From: Deltaproteobacteria bacterium
GTDB taxonomy: Bacteria > Desulfobacterota > Desulfobacteria > Desulfobacterales > JAFDMD01
Reading direction: 5' to 3'
DNA: 64,000 bases
NCBI GenBank assembly: GCA_019306065.1
Contig: JAFDMF010000006.1
Coordinates: 1-64,000 of the forward strand
Shown here: positions 51,716 through 52,798 of the stretch, piece after piece
How the letters are laid out: each line of letters begins with the position of its first letter
Position numbering within the stretch: the first letter of the stretch is position 1
Translations under genes and position numbers: made by a program
Notes under the pieces: model-generated
The model's database searches: none
What the model was told of the DNA's origin: nothing
Seen by the model: only the letters and a program-made list of their open reading frames with translations

Positions 51716-52354
51716 TTACCATATCAACGGTTTATGAATTGTAGTATTAGGAATAGTATCGGGCAACTGAGACGCTGCAAGCGCGCCCTTTCTTATTCGC
51801 TTATTAAAATCGGAGTATTTCATAAGTTCTCTCGAAGGATGAGTTTTGCCGGGAGTAATAAGACCTATAACTTTTTTACGCTGGTTTTTTACCAAATTAA
51901 GAGATTCGGCTAAATCGCTGTCGTTTGATACTACTACTGCGCAATCATATAAATCAAGCCAAGCGTCATTTAATAAATGCAACGCAAGATTTACATCGGA
52001 CCCTTTTTCTTCCGTTTTTATTACGTTTGCCCGCCCGATAGTATTGCCGAAACAATTTTTATCAATAGGGTATGCTAAAGGCTTACAAACATTATGACTG
52101 AGAAACTTGCCGTAATAAATAAAAATTTCGGGAATATATTTTTTTAATGCTCTAATAAAAGTTTTTTGACGCGCCGACTTATTACGATCATTGTTTGTGT
52201 CCGATACATTTGCGGTAAAATATTTTATTGATATTATTTGATGATTGGGAAGAAGAAATTGAAATAATTTTTTAAAATCAAGCCATTTATACGGAGTGTT
52301 TTTAACTGCGCTATAATAAAAATTAAAGCCGTCAATATATATATAAGTTTTCAT
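51716..52354 (-). CDS. NYN (PIN-like) domain ribonuclease
   Basis: MKTYIYIDGFNFYYSAVKNTPYKWLDFKKL; EEKGSDVNLALHLLNDAWLDLYDCAVVVSNDSDL (PIN-like Asp motifs). Confidence 0.9.
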   Translation of the reverse strand: MKTYIYIDGFNFYYSAVKNTPYKWLDFKKLFQFLLPNHQIISIKYFTANVSDTNNDRNKSARQKTFIRALKKYIPEIFIYYGKFLSHNVCKPLAYPIDKNCFGNTIGRANVIKTEEKGSDVNLALHLLNDAWLDLYDCAVVVSNDSDLAESLNLVKNQRKKVIGLITPGKTHPSRELMKYSDFNKRIRKGALAASQLPDTIPNTTIHKPLIW

Positions 52355-52370
52355 AACCTCTAAAAAAGCA

Positions 52371-52415
52371 GAGGCTGCCGAAGCAGCCTCGCGCCCATCG
52401 GTCGAAACCGATGGG
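52371..52415 (-). ncRNA. Candidate structured RNA leader: two tandem UUCG-tetraloop hairpins upstream of the NYN gene
   Basis: Minus strand CCCATCGGT-TTCG-ACCGATGGG (9 bp) then CGC then GAGGCTGC-TTCG-GCAGCCTC (8 bp), followed by TGCTTTTTTAGAGGTT-ATG. Confidence 0.7.
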
Positions 52416-52798
52416 GTAATTAGTAATTTAATGTTTAAGTTGGATATTCGATAAAATAATATTTGTCAAGCGTTTTTTTATAATTAGTCAATGCTAAAAA
52501 ACCTACATTTTAAGCGTCAGCGATTTTGTCAATATTTTTTTTAATTTTAAGTTTTAAATTCTTGTAAATAGCTTACGGAAGTAAAAACCAATACCTTTTA
52601 AAAATTAATTTTTAAAATAGACGCTTCTATTATAATATGATATGATAAACATATTTTTAAAAAACAAATTCGATTGTAAAACCGAATTGACGCATAACAA
52701 ACTATTTTATTCTAGTTCAAAGCGAAAAAAATTTCTCGACAAAAAAATCAAACAAAATAGAAAGTTAGGCGGCAACTTTTACAAAGGAGTTTATTATT

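Follow-up and report, generated by a model that had tools for sequence, protein, structure and literature searches.

A conserved small RNA of about 60 nucleotides travels with a predicted NYN ribonuclease gene across at least eight bacterial phyla, in a layout like that of a toxin gene and its RNA antidote

Introduction

Why should two perfect hairpins with UUCG loops lie immediately in front of a predicted NYN-domain ribonuclease gene in a deltaproteobacterial genome of the Desulfobacterales (GCA_019306065.1)? The original prediction, made from the sequence of a 64,000-nucleotide stretch (contig JAFDMF010000006.1, positions 1 to 64,000, here called the window), was that these hairpins are a structured RNA that the NYN protein may bind, cleave or be regulated by, either as an autoregulatory leader or in an RNA-antitoxin-like arrangement. 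In this study, we examined whether the hairpins are real and conserved, where they lie relative to NYN genes in other genomes and on mobile elements, and which of these interpretations best fits their distribution.

Results

The two hairpins form part of a compact, structured locus. On the minus strand, hairpin H1 is CCCATCGGU-UUCG-ACCGAUGGG (52394-52415, 9 bp), the spacer is CGC (52391-52393), and hairpin H2 is GAGGCUGC-UUCG-GCAGCCUC (52371-52390, 8 bp), followed by UGCUUUUUU (U-run 52362-52367), a Shine-Dalgarno-like AGAGG (52357-52361, identified by inspection) and the ATG at 52354 of the NYN gene (51716-52354, minus strand, 212 amino acids). The hairpins described originally are therefore confirmed, with two adjustments: the gap from H2 to the ATG is 16 nt, not 17, and only H2 has the canonical C(UUCG)G closure, since H1 closes U(UUCG)A. 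In addition, H2 was found to continue through a G-C and a C-G pair past a bulged U, the GC of the spacer pairing with the GC of UGC (52368-52370). The RNA core, comprising H1, H2 and the U-run, spans 52361-52420.

Each hairpin occurs once in the window at up to 3 mismatches, with none expected by chance, and the 106-bp leader is unique in the genome, which rules out a dispersed repeat or MITE. Folding of the leader gave -35.1 kcal/mol, compared with -19.0 +- 3.1 in shuffled sequences (z -5.2), a stability that exceeded all 200 shuffles. The region is AT-rich (GC 0.27-0.38). A candidate promoter lies upstream on the same strand, with a -35 element TTGACA (52464-52469) and a candidate -10 element TATCCA (52441-52446) at a spacing of 17; the -10 element is a weak match in the window but is stronger in most relatives.

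Conservation of the stems upstream of orthologues, with covariation, had been named in advance as the test of a functional RNA, and the stems passed it. A protein search brought sixteen related loci from Desulfobacterota, Bacillota, Ignavibacteria, Chloroflexi, Pseudomonadota, Acidobacteriota, Spirochaetota and Actinomycetota, and nearly all of those with sequence upstream have the same pair of hairpins next to the start codon, with different sequences. In a MAFFT alignment of 20 sequences, 16 of 19 base pairs showed changes on both sides and 92.5% of cells were paired; the covariation score was 0.528, against 0.195 +- 0.019 in shuffles and at most 0.18 when the partners were slid. In a model-fitted set of 59 sequences (58 distinct), 18 of 19 pairs were changed on both sides, 94.5% of cells were paired, and the score was 0.633 against 0.221 +- 0.011 (0/500 shuffles; slid controls at most 0.18). 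The second alignment leans towards the structure because it was fitted to it; the first does not. Features kept across the family are a C-run before and into H1, a UUCG-type loop in most members, and the GC/UGC extension of H2 with its bulged U, in which the C-G pair is kept in 57 of 58 sequences and the neighboring pair is standard in 53.

The covariance model built from 20 sequences (R1) matched the window RNA with 74.1 bits (E 3e-21), although the window is itself one of the 20. Lower-scoring matches were treated with caution. In the genome itself, the best other R1 match (22.5 bits) contains a tRNA-like stretch by its sequence and the others score 14 bits or less, so that none was followed as a member; low-scoring matches next to GC-rich terminators in the phylum search (loci L094 to L096, L098 and L099; L numbers denote loci in our collection) were set aside as likely chance. 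An Rfam search, also proposed beforehand, returned no family for the window, and none in eight relatives apart from plasmid RNAI. A sigma-70-like promoter usually sits just upstream of the RNA: a site with at least 9 of 12 matches was found in the 70 nt upstream in 71% of cases, compared with 14% of mononucleotide shuffles, mostly ending 6-16 nt before the RNA.

The alternative that would have refuted a functional RNA, a plain terminator of an upstream gene, does not hold. H2 with its U-run is the best terminator-like site in the 10.5-kb stretch scanned, and an intrinsic terminator lies between the RNA and the NYN gene, as in most relatives with the RNA upstream. However, the nearest upstream ORF starts some 450 bp away and points the other way, so there is no obvious upstream gene to terminate, and the covarying H1 is not part of the terminator. 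The conserved GC/UGC extension, the repeat arrays and the convergent copies with their own promoters, described below, also argue against a plain intrinsic terminator or attenuator, which we regard as very unlikely.

The placement of the RNA was informative with respect to an autoregulatory leader, in which the NYN enzyme would bind or cut the hairpins in its own mRNA and so limit its own synthesis. Of 59 scored RNA copies, 49 lie upstream of NYN on the same strand, mostly 4-40 nt from the start codon and with a terminator in between, as such a leader would. The other ten are convergent, directly downstream of NYN on the opposite strand and outside its mRNA leader: one in a Mycobacterium abscessus prophage (L024), one on a Paenarthrobacter plasmid (L026) and eight from the actinobacterial genome search. 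In these loci the RNA must act in trans. They are not palindrome artifacts, since the order H1-H2, the UUCG-type loops and, in part, the U-run sit on the opposite strand; they keep H1, H2 and the GC/UGC extension, several have recognizable promoters of their own, and in most of them the U-run is degenerate.

On a protein tree, a core clade of 48 rows (support 99/94) has 33 upstream, 8 convergent and 7 without a model match, and the two placements are interleaved, so that several switches between them are needed. Of the 7, L022 and L023 have other hairpin arrays, L142 and L028 have other hairpin leaders, and L034, L123 and L125 show no recognized RNA; some distant clades (L057, L060, L131, L146, L149 and L150) show none by eye. 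An RNA that stays adjacent while its transcription polarity changes is a trans-acting partner, not only a leader. RNA copies that persist where NYN is broken or gone, described below, also argue against an autoregulatory leader. A leader role fails as a general explanation and is unlikely as the main one, although it may coexist with an antitoxin role, as in type III systems.

Two further leaders were seen. A proteobacterial NYN clade (L030, L033, L035, L148, L152, L153, L154 and L160) has a conserved ACCC...GGG pairing region, in several an AGCGATTAAGTT segment, and then a GCCGGC-type terminator; it is possibly a second RNA type, and was aligned but not tested for covariation. A second, distant NYN gene in the same genome as the window (L068; contig C12, 44453-44989, minus strand) is also preceded by a hairpin and a U-run but is not matched by the covariance model.

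Tandem arrays were found in plasmid relatives. A 4.6-kb mobilizable E. coli plasmid carries a more distant NYN relative preceded by four tandem hairpin repeats (33-, 33- and 29-nt spacing) and a terminator, and two close relatives of this plasmid have five repeats, through different duplications. Sapientia aquatica and a viral contig (loci L015 and L036) have two tandem two-hairpin units. H1 is proposed to be the repeat or recognition unit that corresponds to the hairpin repeated on plasmids; however, the covariance models do not match the plasmid arrays, and this equivalence is an inference from position and shape. In one of the loci (L157, 843-1697), the public annotation starts the NYN gene inside the hairpin array, which is probably a start-site error. 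NYN relatives occur in 453 plasmid records and three phage records, including the mycobacterial prophage, and patchily in genomes: 21 of 297 in the same phylum, and 23 of 348 and 17 of 349 in two others.

The RNA also persists without the enzyme. RNA-model searches over three phyla, followed by a six-frame NYN profile search of each locus, gave 49 RNA copies, of which 22 lie beside an intact NYN gene, 2 beside an N-terminally partial one, 9 beside a broken one and 16 beside none detected, whereas core-clade NYN genes almost always have an RNA. One broken gene (L082, 1571-1801) is a clean in-frame internal deletion that removes the conserved center of the enzyme beside an intact RNA. Some broken genes may be assembly errors, since most of the genomes are metagenome assembled, and real frameshifts were not told apart from such errors; one of the 16 loci (L183) lies near a contig end, and the weakest (L097, L093, L188 and L181) may be chance. 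This asymmetry is what an antidote and a harmful enzyme would leave. The reverse arrangement, in which the RNA is the harmful partner and NYN the RNase that destroys it, would fit an RNA and RNase gene pairing on mobile elements, but RNA copies without an intact NYN are common in three phyla, the opposite of what a toxic RNA would give, and we consider this reading very unlikely.

The protein encoded at 51716-52354 is NYN (PF01936; E = 1e-12, 49.2 bits against a cutoff of 24.2), with acidic positions D8, D120, D145 and D147 invariant in 19 sequences. No solved structure was found by sequence, but the predicted model (mean pLDDT 91.7) had the VPA0982 and MARF1 NYN structures as its best matches. 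MARF1 (PDB 5yaa, 6fdl) is an endoribonuclease and shares the fold, but it is eukaryotic, is only 10-13% identical and has no paired RNA. The window protein also matches phrog_7929, of unknown function, and the PADLOC candidate defense family HEC-09 (E 2.9e-36), as do three plasmid relatives (E 1e-34 to 1e-47 for the four). PADLOC provides a protein model only, and neither an RNA partner nor a test of function for HEC-09 was found in the literature searched.

Discussion

The interpretation offered originally is partly supported: a structured RNA functionally tied to the NYN RNase is upheld, and of its two suggestions the antitoxin-like arrangement fits best, given the repeat arrays, the terminator, the mobile elements and the RNA copies that outlive the RNase gene, but the reading was too narrow, since the RNA is not a private leader. 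We postulate that the locus is a type III-like toxin-antitoxin, or abortive infection, module whose RNase is an NYN (PIN-like) enzyme rather than ToxN, an explanation in which we have reasonable but not high confidence. In this view, a promoter would drive a structured RNA of about 60 nt, which H2 also terminates, and read-through past the terminator would give the NYN mRNA; the abundant RNA would bind the NYN enzyme and keep it off, and when RNA supply falls, through phage shutoff of transcription or loss of the plasmid, the freed RNase would cut cellular or phage RNA. Our analysis demonstrates the conserved, covarying RNA, its linkage to NYN in both orientations, the tandem arrays in plasmid relatives, the NYN fold, the spread on mobile elements and the persistence of the RNA where NYN is broken or gone. 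In contrast, that the RNA is made as predicted, that NYN is active and toxic, that the RNA inhibits it, and any role in phage defense or plasmid upkeep are inferred, no data on expression, toxicity, binding, cleavage or inhibition having been obtained.

An RNA that activates, guides or is matured by NYN, as in a ribonucleoprotein nuclease, would also fit the conserved structure and the adjacency in either orientation, and HEPN and PIN-like enzymes in other defense systems use RNAs. However, the terminator before NYN, the arrays of four and five copies and the RNA copies without NYN fit an excess inhibitor better, and no variable guide-like segment is seen, since the variable positions are paired and covary; this alternative is therefore unlikely.

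The arrangement resembles that of the type III systems ToxIN, CptIN and TenpIN (PMC5086642) in having an RNA gene followed by a Rho-independent terminator and an endoribonuclease gene, in the tandem repeats of about 30 nt in plasmid relatives, and in its spread on mobile elements. It differs in its enzyme: Pfam finds only NYN, and the structural model matches NYN structures, so the protein does not belong to the ToxN/AbiQ superfamily, and we do not file the locus as a ToxIN, CptIN or TenpIN member; on present evidence, it is inferred to work like one. The convergent placement in Actinomycetota is a further difference. On three other features of type III systems, the observations allow no decision. 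The window has one two-hairpin unit rather than a repeat array, although E. coli plasmid relatives have 4-5 repeats and L015 and L036 have two units; a promoter-like site precedes the RNA, but convergent loci cannot share a single promoter between RNA and toxin; and nested folding and covariation showed two hairpins only, without the pseudoknot typical of ToxI, but pseudoknots were not searched systematically.

Other systems show that the type III-like layout is not limited to ToxN. AbiF/Abi_2 (PMC12373285) is an RNase-type toxin preceded by an RNA with repeated motifs, is found in prophages and is described as type III-like, but its enzyme is HEPN and its RNA is unrelated. In AvcID (PMC10511110), an RNA antitoxin lies beside a toxin that is a deoxycytidylate deaminase. 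We found no earlier description of the pairing reported here: searches of the open-access literature revealed no link between NYN and RNA antitoxins, which does not exclude work in subscription journals or preprints, most of which lay outside these searches.

A broader possibility, which we consider about as likely as not, is that these loci represent a widespread, so far undescribed class of RNA-protein immunity or addiction modules in which NYN RNases are controlled by a trans-acting structured RNA, with several RNA architectures in different NYN clades (the two-hairpin unit, hairpin arrays on small plasmids and the different leader of the proteobacterial clade), showing that RNA control of RNase toxins arose on yet another nuclease fold. 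In the papers examined, known RNA-neutralized toxins rest on few protein folds (ToxN-like, AbiF HEPN and the AvcD deaminase). An NYN enzyme with its own RNA would add a fold common in all domains of life, would add a new RNA family to the catalogues, and would give a function to HEC-09, phrog_7929 and hundreds of plasmid genes now named only by domain or misnamed; NYN relatives among the plasmid hits (H32 to H36 and H50) are annotated as 6-hydroxy-3-succinoylpyridine hydroxylase, probably in error.

The surroundings of individual loci gave two further observations. The NYN relative L160 lies next to cas3 on Photobacterium profundum plasmid pPBPR1. At L170 (1501-1560), an RNA copy without NYN directly follows what reads by eye as a tRNA 3' end and is itself followed by ORFs that look like a nucleotidyltransferase and HEPN pair.
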